From Methanocorpusculum sp. (GTDB taxonomy: Archaea; Halobacteriota; Methanomicrobia; Methanomicrobiales; Methanocorpusculaceae), in the NCBI GenBank assembly GCA_017622255.1, contig JAGARL010000192.1, positions 1-10,009 on the forward strand: 10,009 nt of DNA, written 5' to 3'. Under the pieces are notes generated by a model that saw only the letters and a list, made by a program, of their open reading frames with translations, made no database searches and had not been told where the DNA came from. Positions within the stretch are counted from its first letter, which is position 1; every line of letters starts with the position of its first letter. Shown piece after piece: positions 2-4,756 of the stretch. Made by a program: the position numbers and the translations under genes.

Positions 2-361
2 GATGTTAACTCGGATATGTACAGAATTGTCGGATGCGCACTTGCCGTGTATAATCACTTAAAGCCCGGATACCTGGAAGCGGTATATGAGAAGTCGTTG
101 GAGAAGGAACTGCTTCGCGAAGGTTTTGCGGTTCGGCGTCAGGTCAAACTCCCGGTTTGCTACAAGGGAGAACTTCTCGACACGCACTTCACTGCGGACA
201 TGATGGTAAGTGACACGGTTCTGGTGGAACTGAAAGCGGTCTCGAACCTCGCAAAGATTCACGAGCGGCAGGTTGAGAGTTATCTGAAGACGACCGGGAT
301 GCCGGTTGGTCTTCTGGTGAATTTTGGAAATATGCGGAGGTTAGAGTGGCGCGTGGTCTGA
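2..361 (+). CDS. GxxExxY protein, copy 1 (5' end outside window)
   Basis: Member of the GxxExxY family, placed in the PD-(D/E)XK nuclease-like superfamily; no biochemical role is established. The naming motif reads GYLEAVY. The nuclease-like core is FTADMMV followed by VELKA, giving the Asp and Glu-x-Lys of a PD-(D/E)XK site, then a conserved HERQ and a C-terminal NFGNMRRLEWRV block. An ATG lies at 17, but the frame is open to the window edge and the residues before it (DVNSD) align with ADNSD near the N-terminus of copy 2 at 3754-4143. The true start is therefore probably upstream of the window. The two copies match at about 72 of 119 aligned residues, counted by eye. This copy ends at WRVV and lacks the FEKEVRG tail of copy 2; its stop lies in the first strand of a structured repeat. 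Family call is firm, function unknown. Confidence 0.88.
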   Translation, partial: DVNSDMYRIVGCALAVYNHLKPGYLEAVYEKSLEKELLREGFAVRRQVKLPVCYKGELLDTHFTADMMVSDTVLVELKAVSNLAKIHERQVESYLKTTGMPVGLLVNFGNMRRLEWRVV

Positions 362-437
362 GGCGAAAGCCGAGAGGATTGACCGAAGGTCAAGACTCAA
401 GGCATGAGCAAGTCTGTAAGACTTGCGAAAGCCTCAG
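358..437 (+). repeat. Structured hairpin module, copy A
   Basis: An 80-nt element closed by a 7-bp stem CTGAGGC (358-364) with GCCTCAG (431-437); it includes the stop codon of the preceding gene. Inside are a hairpin TTGACC-GAA-GGTCAA (379-393), the conserved ACTCAAG-N3-TGAGCAAG core (395-412), and a perfect 8-bp hairpin GCAAGTCT-GTA-AGACTTGC (408-426) ending in CTTGCGA. Copies in the 4.4-4.6 kb region keep the same layout with different stem sequences. Seen directly; its function and whether it is transcribed are unknown. Confidence 0.7.
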
Positions 438-471
438 GACACAAGCCTTGAGCAAGCCTTAGGCTTGCGAC
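438..471 (+). repeat. Structured hairpin module, partial copy A'
   Basis: Immediately after copy A comes a shorter version with CAAG-CCT-TGAGCAAG (442-456) and a hairpin GCAAGCC-TTA-GGCTTGC (452-468), again ending CTTGCGA. The upstream hairpin is reduced to CCT-C-AGG at 432-438, shared with the closing strand of copy A. A small palindrome GGAGA-GTTT-TCTCC follows at 472-485 and could end a transcript, although no long T-run follows it. Confidence 0.6.
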
Positions 472-527
472 GGAGAGTTTTCTCCCAATAAACCCGTATT
501 ATGCCATATTTATCCTGCAAAATAACG

Positions 528-545
528 CGGGAAATCTTTAAATAT
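528..545 (+). promoter_or_regulatory. TATA/BRE promoter of the surface protein gene
   Basis: CTTTAAATAT (536-545) is a good archaeal TATA box, preceded by a purine-rich BRE-like CGGGAAAT. Initiation about 25 nt downstream would give a leader of roughly 20-25 nt, leaving room for the ribosome-binding site at 579-585. Confidence 0.6.
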
Positions 546-578
546 TTTCCGGTAAAAATACCACTTATTCACTCAAAA

Positions 579-585
579 AGGTGAT
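579..585 (+). promoter_or_regulatory. Ribosome-binding site that decides the surface protein start
   Basis: AGGTGAT complements the archaeal 16S 3' end (AUCACCUCC). It overlaps the in-frame GTG at 581 and ATG at 584, so these cannot use it. It sits 4 nt before the in-frame GTG at 590, which is the better start. Confidence 0.65.
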
Positions 586-589
586 GACT

Positions 590-2920
590 GTGAGAACAAA
601 CAATTTCGACTCGAAAAACGCCCCCCCCCGTGGAACTCTCCGCCGTGCTGTCCGGGCGATGTTTTGCTTAGTGATTATTACCGCGTGCCTCGCAGGTGCG
701 GCGAGTGCGGCGGATATCTGGGACGGAACAGTCAATACTGCCTGGTATGATGACAGTTCCAAAGAAGCGTTTACTCTCACTACAGCAGAAGATCTTGCGG
801 GTCTTGCAAAGCTGGTAAACGACGGAACTACTTTTGATGGAAAAACTGTAACGCTCGCTGCAGACATTGACCTCAATAACCTGGAATGGACGCCGATTGG
901 GAACTCATCCAGTAATTCTGAACCACGCTTCCAAGGAACGTTTGATGGCGGATATCACACAATTAGCGGTCTCAATATTACAGAAACTGACTCAAATGTG
1001 GGATTATTTGGTACTGTCTATAATGGTCAGATTAAAAATCTTCATGTTGACGGAAATATCAATGTAATCAACCCATCTTGTGATTCAATTCTTCATGCTG
1101 GCGGTGTTGCCGGTTATTTCTTTGGTTTAGGAAGTATTGTAAACACCACCTCTTCAGTAGACATCACTATTTCATATGAGGAAAATGCGGTAGTTGCAGG
1201 AGGTATTGCTGGCTACTTCTCCGGAAGAAATTTCGTGAACTGTTCATCTTCGGGGGACATTCAGGTGACTTCGGGGCGTGCTGGAGTTAATGTTTATATC
1301 GGCGGTATTATAGGGCACTTCTACGGAAATAGTTACTCTCCAATTGTTGAGAGATGCTATTCTACTGGGGATATCACCGTCAATGCTAATGGAGGATACA
1401 CGGTTGGCGGAATTGTTGGCTACACCAGTGTGGCTCGGGTTACAATCTCTCAGTGCTACTCTACCTGCAACATTACTACAAATGCTGAGAATTATGATAG
1501 GGATGGTTATATTGGTGTCGGGGGTATTCTCGGACAAGCCAACTGGGGAACAAACATTAGTGATTGTTTCACCACCGGTAACTTAAGAAATACTGTTACC
1601 GGAAAATACTTTAGTGCTGTATCTCTTGGCGGTATTTTAGGCTTGGACTCCTCATCGGCATCTCATATCATGAATTGTTATGCAGTTGGAAATGTAATCA
1701 ACGAAGGTTATGACACTGCAGATGAAAATTCAAAGAAGATGGAGGTAAATGCAGCCGGAATTAGCGGACGTATCTATGCTACGGATGCAACTGTCAGTGG
1801 CAGTTATGCTTTAAACCAAAAGATTACTACGCTTGGTAATGCTACTGTTAATAATTCGGCCCGGGTTGTTGGGGATTACATTGGAGGTTCGCTCTCTAAC
1901 TACGGATGGGTTGGCACAAAGGTAAACGATACCACTGTAACATCAGATGATGTCAGCAGCGTTCACGGAAAAGATGTTGGTCTTGCCTGGAATACTCTCT
2001 TCCCCGAATGGGATACTTCCATCTGGCAGTTGGGAACTGCGGAAAACTATAAACTCCCGATTCTGGCAGGGCTGCCCGCTCCGTCAGCTGATGCAATCCA
2101 TCTCAAGGTGGAGACCGTTACTGTCACGTTCCATAAGGTAGATGGAATAGGAGCTACCTCTGATGTTACAGTAACCAGCGGCAGTACGGTGAGTGCTCCT
2201 GCTGTTTCCTATGTTGGATACACTCTTGAAGGATGGTATACTGAAGATACACACACAAACAAATATGAGTTCGAAACGGAAGTAACCACAGACCTCAACC
2301 TCTACGCAAACTGGACTCCCAATACCTACACCGTTAAGTTCCACAACAACACCGGAACTGGAAGTATGGAGAATCAGCCGTTTGTTTATGACGTATCACA
2401 GAATCTGTGTGCCAATACTTTCGTTAAAACCGGACATCAGTTTGCCGGATGGGCAGAAACCCCAGACGGAGCAGTAAAGTATACAGATACTGTATCTGTT
2501 CAGAACCTGAGTGCTGTAAATAATAGTGAGGTCACGCTCTACGCAAACTGGACGGCTAACACTACTACTGTTATCTTCAATGCTAACGGCGGAGGAGACA
2601 GTGGAACTATGGAAAATCAGGTGTTTAAGTATGGAATTGCGCAGAACCTTCTGCCGAACAACTTCACCAACACCAGCGGTTACAAATTTGTACAATGGAA
2701 CACCACTGAAGGCAAAACCTACTCGGACGGGGCAGAATTTACGTCTAACCTTGTAGAAAACAGTGCGGAAATCATCCTCTATGCAGAATGGGCACGCTAC
2801 TACAATGTAACATTCGAAACCAACGGGGGAAGTACTGTCCCCTTACAGGAAGTGAAAAACGGAACCCTTGTAACAGCTCCGGGCACTCCAACAAAGAGCA
2901 GTTCCACCTTTAGCGGATAG
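590..2920 (+). CDS. Large secreted surface protein with GLUG and InlB-type repeats, cut by an in-frame TAG
   Basis: Predicted exported cell-surface protein, probably adhesive. From the GTG at 590, residues 1-40 form a signal peptide: Arg-rich start, hydrophobic core (MFCLVIITACLAGA) and AXA-like cleavage before ADIWDG. Residues about 60-130 form the TAEDLAGLAKLVN...FQGTFDGGYHTISGL segment that typically precedes GLUG repeats. Residues about 135-440 carry repeated GGI-x-G-x and SxSxGDI/CYSTGDI units of GLUG type. From about 507 come InlB/Listeria-Bacteroides-type repeats ending in LYANWT or LYAEWA. Many N-x-S/T sequons are present. Codon 777 is TAG, and the same frame then continues uninterrupted for 268 more codons to a sorting tail, so this is the front three quarters of a 1045-residue protein. 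A run of nine C's lies in codons 11-14. The order of parts and export are clear; ligand and exact role are not. Confidence 0.82.
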   Translation: MRTNNFDSKNAPPRGTLRRAVRAMFCLVIITACLAGAASAADIWDGTVNTAWYDDSSKEAFTLTTAEDLAGLAKLVNDGTTFDGKTVTLAADIDLNNLEWTPIGNSSSNSEPRFQGTFDGGYHTISGLNITETDSNVGLFGTVYNGQIKNLHVDGNINVINPSCDSILHAGGVAGYFFGLGSIVNTTSSVDITISYEENAVVAGGIAGYFSGRNFVNCSSSGDIQVTSGRAGVNVYIGGIIGHFYGNSYSPIVERCYSTGDITVNANGGYTVGGIVGYTSVARVTISQCYSTCNITTNAENYDRDGYIGVGGILGQANWGTNISDCFTTGNLRNTVTGKYFSAVSLGGILGLDSSSASHIMNCYAVGNVINEGYDTADENSKKMEVNAAGISGRIYATDATVSGSYALNQKITTLGNATVNNSARVVGDYIGGSLSNYGWVGTKVNDTTVTSDDVSSVHGKDVGLAWNTLFPEWDTSIWQLGTAENYKLPILAGLPAPSADAIHLKVETVTVTFHKVDGIGATSDVTVTSGSTVSAPAVSYVGYTLEGWYTEDTHTNKYEFETEVTTDLNLYANWTPNTYTVKFHNNTGTGSMENQPFVYDVSQNLCANTFVKTGHQFAGWAETPDGAVKYTDTVSVQNLSAVNNSEVTLYANWTANTTTVIFNANGGGDSGTMENQVFKYGIAQNLLPNNFTNTSGYKFVQWNTTEGKTYSDGAEFTSNLVENSAEIILYAEWARYYNVTFETNGGSTVPLQEVKNGTLVTAPGTPTKSSSTFSG
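621..629 (+). repeat. Homopolymer C9 tract inside the signal-peptide coding region
   Basis: Nine consecutive C's encode parts of Ala-Pro-Pro-Arg near the start of the surface protein. Loss or gain of one C would shift the frame within the first 15 codons and abolish the product. This layout is typical of slipped-strand phase-variable surface genes in bacteria. Here it is an inference from position and length only. Confidence 0.5.
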
Positions 2921-3004
2921 TACAAGGACAACGGATTCTCCTCTCCATGGAATTTCGGCACAGACGTCGTAACTGCTGACATCACACTCTACGCCAAGTG
3001 GACC
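2108..3004 (+). repeat. Four tandem InlB/Listeria-Bacteroides-type repeats
   Basis: Four units of about 70-80 residues lie at roughly 2108-2317, 2318-2557, 2558-2794 and 2795-3004. Each begins with a (T)V-T/K/I-F strand, has an aromatic motif in the middle and ends LYA-[NEK]-W-[TA]. The central motifs are LEGWY, FAGWA, FVQWN and FSG-amber-Y. The first three have Trp at the position of the TAG in the fourth. These beta-grasp-like repeats are common in bacterial and methanogen surface proteins. Confidence 0.75.
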
Positions 3005-3727
3005 TCCAGCGGAAACACCGGAGGAGGCACTGGCGGAGGAGGCAGCAGTGGAGGAAGCACCACCCCGTCTGTAACGCCGAGTGAACCGACTGAACCGGAA
3101 GTAACCCCGACCGAACCAACCGAACCGGATGTCCCGGCTGAACCGGTCGTCATCCCGCCGTCCGAAACGGTTGTTGAAGAGACACAGGAAATTGTCCCGG
3201 CAAACATCATAACCCCCACAAACGGCGTCCCGCTGGCTCTTGTTGAACTCGTGGATACCAACGCCCTGCAGACCGTAGCCGTCCCGGCAAACGTTGTAGA
3301 GGAGAAACCCGGCGCATCCGTTCAGGTCGTTGAAGGAAACGCCGAAGAGGTCATCCTCGTAGAAAGCGTCAAAGCCGAAGATGTTCACCTCATCGTCGAA
3401 GTATCGGTTGTGGACACAGAAGGAAACAAGGTAACCGTTGACGAACCGGGACACTTCATCTTAGCAGCTGACGTCCCGGACGGAAAGAAACTCGTCGTCG
3501 GACACTACAAGAACGATGTCTGGGTTGACTGTACTGTAGAAGACCTCGGAAACGGTCAGTACAAAGTACACTACAACGGACTGTCTCCGTTCGCAGCTGT
3601 CTTCATTGAAGAACACGAAGAAAGCCCGTTCGCCGCTGAAGAAGAACCAACCGCCCCGGCAAGCCCGGCCCCGCTCCTCGGACTCCTCGCAGGACTTGCC
3701 TGTGCTGCAGTTCTTCGCAGAAAGTAA
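2921..3727 (+). pseudogene. C-terminal part of the same surface protein, downstream of the TAG
   Basis: The frame continues without any shift. It completes the fourth repeat (YKDNGFSSPWNFGT to LYAKWT), then a glycine/serine linker (3005-3060), a Pro-Thr-Glu repeat stretch such as TEPEVTPTEPTEP (3061-3160), and a compact acidic domain of about 150 residues (VVEETQEIVPANII to LSPFAAVFIEE). The tail, PASPAPLLGLLAGLACAAVLRRK, has a small-residue/proline motif, a short membrane segment and a basic end: the pattern of an archaeosortase sorting signal. Without readthrough or reversion this half is not made and the protein would lose its anchor. An in-frame GTG at 3251 could start a short product, but it falls inside the acidic domain with no ribosome-binding site that I can see, so I do not treat it as a separate gene. 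Confidence 0.75.
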
Positions 3728-3736
3728 CGGCTGAAG

Positions 3737-3762
3737 AAAAAAAAAACGGGGAATCATCCCCG
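3737..3762 (-). terminator. Terminator of GxxExxY copy 2
   Basis: Read on the minus strand: CGGGGA-TGAT-TCCCCG hairpin followed directly by ten T's. The TGA stop codon of the gene lies in the hairpin loop. The surface gene converges from the other side and ends only 9 nt before the T-run. Confidence 0.75.
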
Positions 3763-3786
3763 AACCTCTTTTTCAAACACTCTCCA
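3747..3786 (+). repeat. 40-bp inverted repeat, left arm
   Basis: Matches the reverse complement of 4712-4751 at 38 of 40 positions. It spans the terminator hairpin and the last codons of GxxExxY copy 2. The arms enclose about 0.9 kb containing that gene and the two candidate RNAs. Confidence 0.85.
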
Positions 3787-4143
3787 CTCCAACCTCCGCA
3801 GATTTCCAAAATTCAGCAGAAGCCCTTCGGAAATCCCGGTACTTTTCAGATAACTTGCAAGCTGTCTCTCGTGCATCGGATTCAGCGAGGAGACGGCTTT
3901 GAGTTCTAAGAGAATGCAGTCATTCACCACCATGTCCGCGAAGAAGTCCTTCTTCAACTCCACACCTTTGTAGAAAACCGGAATCTTAACCTGACGCTTC
4001 ACCTCGAAGCCTGCCTGCACGAGCTCCCACTCGAGAGCAGCCTCATAGACCGATTCCAGGTAGCCCGGCTTTAACGTGTTGTATGTCTCAAATGCGCACC
4101 GAAGAACTTTCAGCGAGTCCGAATTGTCAGCAAATCTTTTCAT
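3754..4143 (-). CDS. GxxExxY protein, copy 2
   Basis: A full-length 129-residue GxxExxY protein, the usual size for the family. The motif is GYLESVY (residues 27-33). The PD-(D/E)XK-like signature is FFADMVV (D70) and LELKA (E80, K82), followed by HERQ (91-94) and the NFGNLRRLEWRV block (111-122). No signal peptide or membrane segment is visible, so it should be cytoplasmic. It starts at an ATG with no clear Shine-Dalgarno sequence and converges on the surface protein gene. Its terminator overlaps its own stop codon. Upstream lies no minus-strand gene but the 5' end of candidate RNA 1, transcribed divergently. It is about 60% identical to copy 1. The nuclease-like fold is family knowledge; activity and target are unknown. 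Confidence 0.9.
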   Translation of the reverse strand: MKRFADNSDSLKVLRCAFETYNTLKPGYLESVYEAALEWELVQAGFEVKRQVKIPVFYKGVELKKDFFADMVVNDCILLELKAVSSLNPMHERQLASYLKSTGISEGLLLNFGNLRRLEWRVFEKEVRG

Positions 4144-4149
4144 AAATTA
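4136..4149 (+). promoter_or_regulatory. TATA-like box for candidate RNA 1
   Basis: The sequence TTTTCATAAATTAC is AT-rich and ends about 15 nt before the first strand of the closing stem at 4163, placing a likely start close to the base of the structure. It overlaps the start codon of the divergent GxxExxY gene, so composition alone could explain it. Confidence 0.35.
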
Positions 4150-4162
4150 CACTCTGAAGCCC

Positions 4163-4486
4163 CCGCAGAACCGTGGGCGGCTTACACGGCCCAGGTGTGA
4201 ACCGCGAGACGATATCCCTGGCGGGATGAGAGCCGTCAGGCGAACAGACCGACGGGGTTATTCTCTCGCGGATGCACGCCTGTGCCCCGCCCTGTCCCAC
4301 ATATCAGAGAGCCGGAAAACAAAAAAGACGAGTGCGCCGAAGTCCGCATGTCGAAGACCGAGGACGAAGGAGCGGTCGGAAGCAGGCCTGCAGAACACGC
4401 GACAGGCGAGGGTGCGACAGCACCCAAGCCAGGAGCAAGGCTCGAAGAGACTTGCGACAGCGTGTGAAGCGGCTCTGCGGTTTTTT
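4163..4486 (+). ncRNA. Candidate structured RNA 1 (unassigned)
   Basis: GC-rich stretch (63% in 4401-4460) with no credible gene on either strand. Its ends pair: CCGCAGAACCG (4163-4173) with CGGCTCTGCGG (4470-4480), 10 of 11 positions, followed at once by TTTTTT. Internal pairings include TGGGC/GCCCA (4174-4178, 4189-4193), a perfect 8-bp CCGCGAGA/TCTCGCGG (4202-4209, 4264-4271) enclosing ATCCC-TGGC-GGGAT and CCGTC/GACGG, then GCAC-GCCT-GTGC (4274-4285), GTC-GAA-GAC (4350-4358), and the repeat module at 4395-4465. I could not find the conserved cores of RNase P RNA (GGAAAGUC) or SRP RNA (helix 8), nor a group II intron domain. The RNA nature is inferred from structure, promoter spacing and T-run. 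Confidence 0.5.
4395..4465 (+). repeat. Structured hairpin module, copy C
   Basis: Closed by ACACGC (4395-4400) with GCGTGT (4460-4465). First hairpin is GGGTGC-GACA-GCACCC (4410-4425). The core CAAG-CCA-GGAGCAAG follows, and then the second hairpin GCAAGGCTC-GAA-GAGACTTGC (4435-4455, one mismatch), ending CTTGCGA. Positions 4433-4457 are identical to 4594-4618 in copy B (25 of 25), while the flanking stems differ in sequence but still pair. Confidence 0.75.
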
Positions 4487-4512
4487 GTCGGCGAGTCGGT
4501 CTAACACCAAAC

Positions 4513-4526
4513 CCGAATCCTTTTAA
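4513..4526 (+). promoter_or_regulatory. TATA-like box for candidate RNA 2
   Basis: CGAATCCTTTTAATG resembles a BRE plus TATA box in otherwise GC-rich surroundings. Initiation about 25 nt downstream would fall near the first strand of the 9-bp stem of copy B. Confidence 0.4.
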
Positions 4527-4533
4527 TGACCTC

Positions 4534-4631
4534 CCCGCCGGGAAAAGCCGCCGCGACAGCGAGCAGCGCGAGGCGCGAAGCGACTCAAGCGGTGAGCAAG
4601 GCTCGAAGAGACTTGCGAGCGGCCCGGCGGG
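4534..4631 (+). repeat. Structured hairpin module, copy B
   Basis: Closed by a perfect 9-bp stem CCCGCCGGG (4534-4542) with CCCGGCGGG (4623-4631), extended by CCGC/GCGG (4548-4551, 4619-4622). Inside are CGC-GAA-GCG (4574-4582), the core ACTCAAG-CGG-TGAGCAAG (4583-4600), and GCAAGGCTC-GAA-GAGACTTGC (4596-4616) ending CTTGCGA. Confidence 0.75.
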
Positions 4632-4712
4632 CTTGAAGAATGAGCTTCACCGAGAGAACACAACAAACAGCCGGGGGCGTGCGACGGCGTTTCGTCACTC
4701 TCTAATTTTTTT
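4534..4712 (+). ncRNA. Candidate structured RNA 2 (unassigned)
   Basis: This second GC-rich, gene-free stretch consists of repeat copy B (4534-4631) and a tail ending in a bulged hairpin GTGCGACG-GCGTT-TCGTCAC (about 4679-4697), followed by seven T's (4706-4712). A TATA-like box sits at the right distance upstream. Together with candidate RNA 1 it forms a tandem pair, each holding one copy of the module in its 3' half. Transcription is inferred, not shown. Confidence 0.4.
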
Positions 4713-4744
4713 GGAGCGTGTTTGAAAAAGAGGTTGGGGGATGA
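4712..4744 (+). pseudogene. 3' tail fragment of a third GxxExxY gene
   Basis: The plus strand reads WSVFEKEVGG-stop, nearly identical to the WRVFEKEVRG-stop end of copy 2, in opposite orientation. Just upstream in frame is a TAA at 4703-4705, and the preceding sequence shows no family similarity. Only the last ten codons of a gene therefore survive. It is followed by the same GGGGA-TGAT-TCCCC hairpin terminator, again with the stop in the loop. Confidence 0.75.
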
Positions 4745-4751
4745 TTCCCCG
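4712..4751 (-). repeat. 40-bp inverted repeat, right arm
   Basis: Reverse complement of 3747-3786 with two mismatches. Because the match includes coding sequence and terminator, it most simply reflects a duplicated GxxExxY 3' end in inverted orientation. Confidence 0.85.
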
Positions 4752-4756
4752 GTTTT
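4737..4756 (+). terminator. Relict terminator of the GxxExxY tail fragment
   Basis: GGGGA-TGAT-TCCCC hairpin followed by GGTTTT. It is homologous to the terminator of copy 2, but its T-run is shortened. Confidence 0.55.

Follow-up and report, generated by a model that had tools for sequence, protein, structure and literature searches.

The 10,009-nt stretch analysed here, contig JAGARL010000192.1 of a Methanocorpusculum sp. assembly (GCA_017622255.1; hereafter the window), carries a short structured repeat that we consider likely to be a non-autonomous mobile element, approximately 46 to 62 nt long and made of two hairpins, which inserts into the small loops of existing hairpins. A first-pass annotation of the window had described four repeat stretches (358–437, 438–471, 4395–4465, and 4534–4631), and all four were present when the sequence was re-read; the observation was upheld, and its interpretation is supported in part. 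The unit boundaries, the pairs of filled and empty sites, the loop preference, the nesting, the tandem arrays, the covariation, and the near-confinement to a single genus can be read from the compared sequences themselves. From these features we infer the empty sites to be older than the filled ones, the active form to be a DNA strand folded on itself, and the two-hairpin structure to be recognized by an enzyme. The annotation had not chosen between RNA and single-stranded DNA; the insertions favour DNA without proving it, and the element probably acts as folded single-stranded DNA. In the proposed mechanism, such a strand would be joined into an exposed loop by a structure-recognizing enzyme, mostly one nucleotide before the 3' arm and with no or merely 1–2 nt of duplication. 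Among the targets would be the element's own hairpins, which results in nesting, further intergenic palindromes, and non-coding, hairpin-rich stretches of GxxExxY elements, which carry genes for nucleases of the PD-(D/E)XK kind.

Copies were detected with a covariance model, R1 (48 positions, 15 pairs), derived from 10 simple copies, all located outside the window; this subset was chosen because MAFFT alone misaligned hairpin 1. R1 recovered four of the four window copies (369–428, 437–470, 4405–4457, and 4567–4618), listed here with the structures that hold them:

353..470, + strand: outer copy A', its hairpin 1 (GTG-GT-CTGAGGC-GAAA...GCCTCAG-GA-CAC) broken by copy A
within 353..470, + strand: 3' part of A', with linker TTGA and hairpin 2 GCAAGCC-TTA-GGCTTGC-GA; R1 matches 437–470 only, 27.1 bits
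369..428, + strand: copy A, a full unit lodged within the GAAA loop of A'; R1 51.0 bits
4395..4465, + strand: host hairpin ACACGC-GACA-GCGTGT holding copy C, the closing stem of the first-pass annotation; empty in contig 13 of genome G019, from the same genus (locus L182)
4405..4457, + strand: copy C, a full unit; R1 40.3 bits
4534..4631, + strand: hairpin-rich stretch CCCGCCGGG...CCCGGCGGG around copy B; weak empty-like matches only, at locus L102 (best E 1.6e-4)
4567..4618, + strand: copy B, a full unit; R1 32.9 bits

These placements change how the repeat is drawn. The unit of the first-pass annotation was too large, the actual one being the two hairpins of approximately 46–62 nt, and A and A', described as two neighbours, form one nested pair in which A (369–428) lies inside hairpin 1 of A' (approximately 353–470); its junction falls in the hairpin loop and is separated from the 3' arm by 1 nt. 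An A'-like outer unit with an unbroken hairpin 1 (TGAGGC-GAAA-GCCTCA) was found downstream of a GxxExxY gene at locus L021, where other repeat copies are nested in its hairpin 2. Because A resides in the GAAA loop of A' and the host hairpin of C is empty in G019, the closing stems of A and C are receiving hairpins, and the covariation attributed to closing stems is therefore that of unrelated targets. A clean empty site for copy B was looked for among the fetched loci and not found; the stretch 4534..4631 is probably the host structure that received copy B, with a closing stem that is not part of the repeat.

Read 5' to 3', the consensus unit consists of GGC-GA-GAGCC-GAA-GGCTC-AA-GCC, NKGA, GCAAGCC-N-GGCTTGC, and a final GA. 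Hairpin 1 contains a GA/AA internal loop, and hairpin 2 has GA on either side, which would allow tandem G.A pairs to form. The GA/AA pairs, the GA flanking hairpin 2 on both sides, and the basal GC of hairpin 2 are almost invariant. By contrast with the fixed CAAG and exactly three variable bases first proposed, other copies show CTCGAG, ACTAAG, or CCATTGAG at that position. A search of the window's genome with the exact motif CAAGN4GAGCAAGN3-12CTTGCGA gave 12 matches, of which the window holds four; a reversed-pattern control gave 0. Counted in distinct cores of at least 40 nt, the commonest apical loop is C-GAA-G (52 of 160 loops), a loop that is unusually stable in DNA. Compared with their shuffles, copies A and C are much more stably folded (z of -7.5 and -6.0), whereas A' and B are not (z of -1.9 and -1.8).

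Compensatory changes occur in both hairpins, so this part of the covariation originally described stands. In a structure-fitted alignment of 61 distinct copies, 94.0% of cells pair and changes on both sides are found in 13 of the 15 pairs; there are 114 both-side-changed cells, a number not reached in any of 500 shuffles (24.8 ± 4.0), and slid versions give at most 21. The 32 distinct copies of G019 alone gave 44 such cells, in 10 of the 15 pairs, against 11.5 in shuffles. Comparison with Rfam yielded three sub-threshold matches only, in the window and six other loci, none on the repeats, which have no match to a curated covariance model. Binding of a kink-turn protein of the L7Ae kind was considered and set aside; the GA pairs would fit, yet a canonical C-stem was not seen.

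Mobility is indicated by the flanks. We compared 129 R1 matches, representing 99 distinct flank pairs, with possible partners among the fetched loci, and 40 of the 99 pairs had an empty-like partner (13 flagged as tandem, 27 not). In the 27 non-tandem pairs, the net insert exceeds the core by 1 nt in 16, by 2 in six, and by 3 in two, and falls 1 nt short of it in three; the extra base or bases are sometimes a copy of the neighbour (T, TT, CA) and sometimes not. When the empty contexts were folded with DNA parameters, the junction lay in a hairpin loop at 16 of 28 sites, compared with 200 of 728 shifted positions. These 28 sites comprise the 27 non-tandem pairs plus four that the tandem filter had caught but that were retained manually (L115, L003, window C, L118), with duplicate contexts removed, and several share the GGCGATTAGCC/GGCTAATCGCC loop and are hence non-independent, the site families being partly related. 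A second hairpin family (CCCGCC...GGCTAATCGCC...GGCGGGGCAATCA) recurs as a target of the repeat at L017, L009, L020, and L022, upstream or downstream of GxxExxY genes.

A larger set was obtained by excising the units from their flanks and removing relatives (57 sites, from 88 distinct ones with a core of at least 40 nt, minus 24 tandem-like and seven related). Here, the junction fell in a loop at 30 of 57 sites against 462 of 1653 shifted positions (27.9% expected; p = 7e-5). With the extra base counted to the unit, 13 of the 30 loop junctions are one nucleotide before the 3' arm, compared with 68 of 462 in the control (p 1.5e-4); with that base not counted, 11 of 30 are two nucleotides before it, compared with 63 of 462. 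Units are nested in the hairpins of other units at L013, L019, L021, and L024 as well as in the window (A in A'), and presence and absence differ between genomes at closely matching flanks, for example filled at L015 and empty at L166. One 50-nt core is identical at two hairpins in two genomes with unlike flanks, and a second identical core occurs twice on one contig with partly alike flanks.

Several observations weigh against this interpretation. No loop was present at the junction of 27 of the 57 sites under the folding used. Current activity is not established, because identical cores at unlike sites are few (two cores), and metagenome-assembled genomes may err at repeats. The covariation alignments (A3, A4) were fitted to R1 and lean towards the model, so part of the excess of both-side changes is built in. 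Furthermore, no transposase candidate emerged among Y1_Tnp, TnpB, and reverse transcriptase in the 25 genomes of the genus. Y1_Tnp (PF01797) was found in 0 of 25, while the same search was positive in six of 16 other genomes of the order and five of 14 controls. TnpB was rejected as the mover, scoring above the cut-off in 1 of 25, and so was reverse transcriptase, which six of the 25 genomes contain, the window's genome not among them. Viral contigs gave no match for one repeat pattern or for the GxxExxY protein encoded at the start of the window.

In the compared genomes, the repeat is nearly restricted to the gut methanogen genus Methanocorpusculum. R1 matches 18 of the 25 Methanocorpusculum genomes, confirming that further copies exist in relatives, with at least 49 copies in G002, 38 in G010, 38 in G007, 35 in G019, and 25 in G000 (the window's genome), and at least 2–28 in the thirteen others; per genome, up to 150 candidates were scored in the genus, 50 in the order, and 20 in the phylum. 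Among 120 genomes sampled across the order, the 13 with R1 all belong to this genus, one of 30 genera, and R1 is absent from the 29 others. In the phylum sample (294 genomes), a single weak match was found outside the genus (G235, E 2e-4). The copies are mostly intergenic hairpins, many per genome (25–49 R1 matches in five genomes); in G019, four of 35 lie within mechanical open reading frames (ORFs) of at least 150 aa. Tandem runs contain 2–7 R1 matches. Runs of 7, 4, 3, and 2 copies at L052, L048, L050, and L049, spaced at 50–54 nt and near-identical within L052 and L048, are located in like surroundings in G021, G015, G003, and G012; at the two of these loci with ORFs listed, the run lies beside a gene that we take to be flippase-like. 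An array of clustered regularly interspaced short palindromic repeats (CRISPR) was rejected as an explanation; successive R1 matches in the L052 and L048 runs are separated by 3–4 nt, without unique spacers.

Our searches of the open-licence PubMed Central literature did not turn up a description of this repeat, and the palindromic repeats mentioned in a paper on M. labreanum concern CRISPR. The nearest kinds, by analogy, appear to be organellar double-hairpin elements and repetitive extragenic palindromes (REPs) inserted in palindromes; the Methanocorpusculum repeat would work like these, yet it is not a REP by foot or by transposase. The organellar double-hairpin or repetitive hairpin-forming elements of Allomyces, Schizosaccharomyces, and sponges are described as short, with two hairpins, mostly intergenic, and varying in frequency between close species; Volvox palindromes, with a mean of 50 nt, are inserted in one another; and a lack of duplications is noted for the Allomyces elements (PMC10085805, PMC2800124, PMC2670323, and through these Paquin 2000). 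The Methanocorpusculum repeat shares two consecutive hairpins, a size of approximately 50 nt, and insertion polymorphism without long target duplication. It differs in residing in archaeal methanogen genomes rather than organelles (the comparison is by description, not sequence), in having stems that covary around constant GA motifs, and in a loop insertion measured over dozens of sites.

Bacterial REPs of the GTAG and CGTC families are, according to one study, short intergenic hairpins in clusters and dimers, some families lying inside palindromes, and no transposase seems to be dedicated to the CGTC families (PMC3733652). The repeat resembles them in its many short intergenic hairpin copies; unlike them, its consensus (GGCGAG...NKGAGC...GCGA) shows by eye no GT[AG]G or CGTC foot, and it has two hairpins per unit, nests in itself, and is accompanied by no Y1 transposase in the 25 genomes. 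Insertion sequences of the IS200/IS605 family cause little or no target duplication. Their derived miniature elements and miniature inverted-repeat transposable elements are similarly small and non-autonomous; in contrast to these, the repeat has no terminal inverted repeats that we could see and no known parent element, and Y1_Tnp was not found in the 25 genomes. If the two-hairpin element is indeed mobile as proposed, an archaeal genome hosts a self-nesting element aimed at structures, not sequences, and its mover would not be a Y1 transposase nor, it seems, a reverse transcriptase. The spread of organellar double-hairpin elements and of transposase-less REPs could then be tested in a prokaryote that offers filled and empty sites by the dozen.

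An unlikely alternative is that the GxxExxY nuclease, a PD-(D/E)XK enzyme of the Cas4/lambda-exonuclease kind, recognizes GA-flanked hairpins and opens or cuts their loops, letting the unit insert. In G019, the distance to the nearest of nine GxxExxY genes is at most 600 bp for seven of 35 copies (expected: 0.44) and at most 3 kb for 10 (expected: 1.5), as counted on six complete contigs (1.05 Mb) that were picked for earlier matches and with R1 at E up to 0.05. In agreement with this idea, a GA-hairpin-GA motif in the structured leader of these genes occurs on one strand only (antisense in 20 of 22 leaders, sense in 0 of 22, 4.5% in mononucleotide shuffles), the protein model is similar to SSO0001 (Foldseek E 3e-4) and, less closely, to lambda exonuclease (E 1e-2), and copy numbers of repeat and gene have a genus-wide rank correlation of 0.57 (p 0.003). 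That correlation is weak evidence resting on five genomes; it vanishes when the comparison is limited to the 12 genomes with a completeness of 90% or more (0.21, p 0.52), and likewise when the five genomes that have leaders are left out (0.16, p 0.49). Moreover, G011, G023, G024, and G001, which are 69–76% complete, carry 23, 20, 11, and 3 repeats without a GxxExxY match, while near-complete G004 and G008 have GxxExxY genes and zero repeats. The remaining 28 copies of G019 are more than 600 bp from a GxxExxY gene, and orientations relative to these genes are mixed in its contigs, where a regular arrangement was sought and rejected; the shared orientation and GxxExxY neighbours pointed out in the annotation thus hold within the window and not generally. 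The enrichment is also explained by an abundance of target hairpins in GxxExxY elements, and the simplest reading of the link is that these elements are hairpin-rich targets. A broader version, which we regard as distinctly doubtful, has an alpha/beta pair of GxxExxY proteins acting on GA-flanked folded DNA strands as a transposition machinery without a classical transposase, moving both the repeats into hairpin loops and the restriction-modification cassettes, described below, that convergent alpha and beta genes bound.

Template switching during replication could also copy hairpins into hairpins with no unit-specific enzyme, and this too we hold to be unlikely. The families searched contain no candidate transposase, hairpins stand on both sides, and 1–2 nt overlaps are found at some junctions, all of which it would accommodate; the recurrence of the same two ends at many sites and the preferred 1-nt position in the loop suggest specific recognition instead. 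We judge it quite improbable that the unit functions as a structured RNA or in RNA processing, is maintained for its fold, and has multiplied through ordinary duplication. Covariation and the copy runs in like surroundings in four genomes (G021, G015, G003, G012) are compatible with this reading, whereas duplication would not be expected to produce nesting, a targeting of loops, or unit ends that are sharp at many sites. Movement as REP-type elements by a Y1 (HUH, RAYT/TnpA-REP) transposase would match the size, the intergenic hairpins, and the tandem and dispersed copies, and REPs inserted in palindromes are reported (PMC3733652). This alternative is very improbable given that PF01797 is found in 0 of 25 genus genomes and that no GT[AG]G foot, as defined in PMC6006769, was noticed by eye in the unit.

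The GxxExxY genes of the window, which we named alpha and beta (names given by similarity to these two genes), and the accompanying leader are as follows:

17..361, + strand: GxxExxY gene (PD-(D/E)XK nuclease), alpha type; TIGR04256 129.2 bits, PF13366 128.8 bits
3754..4143, - strand: GxxExxY gene, beta type, convergent with alpha; TIGR04256 128.2 bits, PF13366 124.1 bits
4175..4292, - strand: structured leader upstream of the beta gene, with a GA-flanked hairpin on the + strand; leader model R2 98.4 bits (one of the 22 sequences behind R2)

The contig start truncates the alpha gene, removing its 5' end and leader. GxxExxY copies share approximately 0.9 kb, from about -410/-530 to +385 around the gene start, and their flanks are mostly unlike. 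In the long stem of the leader, 93.5% of cells are paired across the 22 sequences, and 73 show a change on both sides, compared with 25.1 in shuffles and no more than 9 in slid versions; the MAFFT alignment was not fitted to the structure, which was named after inspecting that alignment. Two of five measures are weaker, because many changes represent two stem versions inherited as blocks: there are 12 double-change pairs against 9.6 in shuffles (nine of 500 reach 12), and 17 further pair types against 21.3 (every shuffle reaches 17). R2 matches five of the 25 genus genomes and one of 23 genera in a 61-genome sample of the order. The window's genome has two further leader matches, contig 287:11–125 (-), which extends to the contig end, and contig 110:6830–6949 (+), with no GxxExxY match on the same contig.

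The predicted alpha protein (predicted local distance difference test score of 91 for the best of five models, 65–78 for the others) has a helix-strand-strand-strand-helix-strand order and is nearest to SSO0001, presumably a Cas4, and to lambda exonuclease. A search by sequence of solved structures with the beta protein yielded one match (E 0.5), taken as chance.

Neighbouring GxxExxY genes within 10 kb of each other form 18 pairs in the five leader genomes, fragments of one gene left out; 16 are convergent, one divergent, and one same-strand, and 13 of the 16 convergent pairs combine one alpha-like and one beta-like gene. Convergent pairs enclose 1–9 kb of cargo (the window; L200–L211, L115, L112–L113, L108). 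Restriction-modification cargo was identified in eight of the 16 cassettes, including MmeI-type enzymes, DpnI, type I and C5 methyltransferases, and an HSDR_N protein, with ten proteins scanned against PADLOC and ten against Pfam. Three further cassettes contain unscanned ORFs whose first residues resemble those of DpnI or MmeI. Loci L018 and L020, in two genomes, have a common DpnI cassette over approximately 3.3 kb, outside of which the flanks compared do not match. Convergent GxxExxY pairs with structured leaders thus look like an undescribed mobile defence cassette, or carrier of restriction systems.

Between its two GxxExxY genes the window itself carries a surface-protein gene with Listeria-Bacteroides repeats (581–2920, +; stop at 2918–2920), followed by a further ORF (3251–3727, +) ahead of the beta gene. 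A 45-nt inverted repeat, 93% complementary, is formed by positions 3742–3786 and 4712–4756, and the latter arm looks like the leftover 3' end of another GxxExxY gene.

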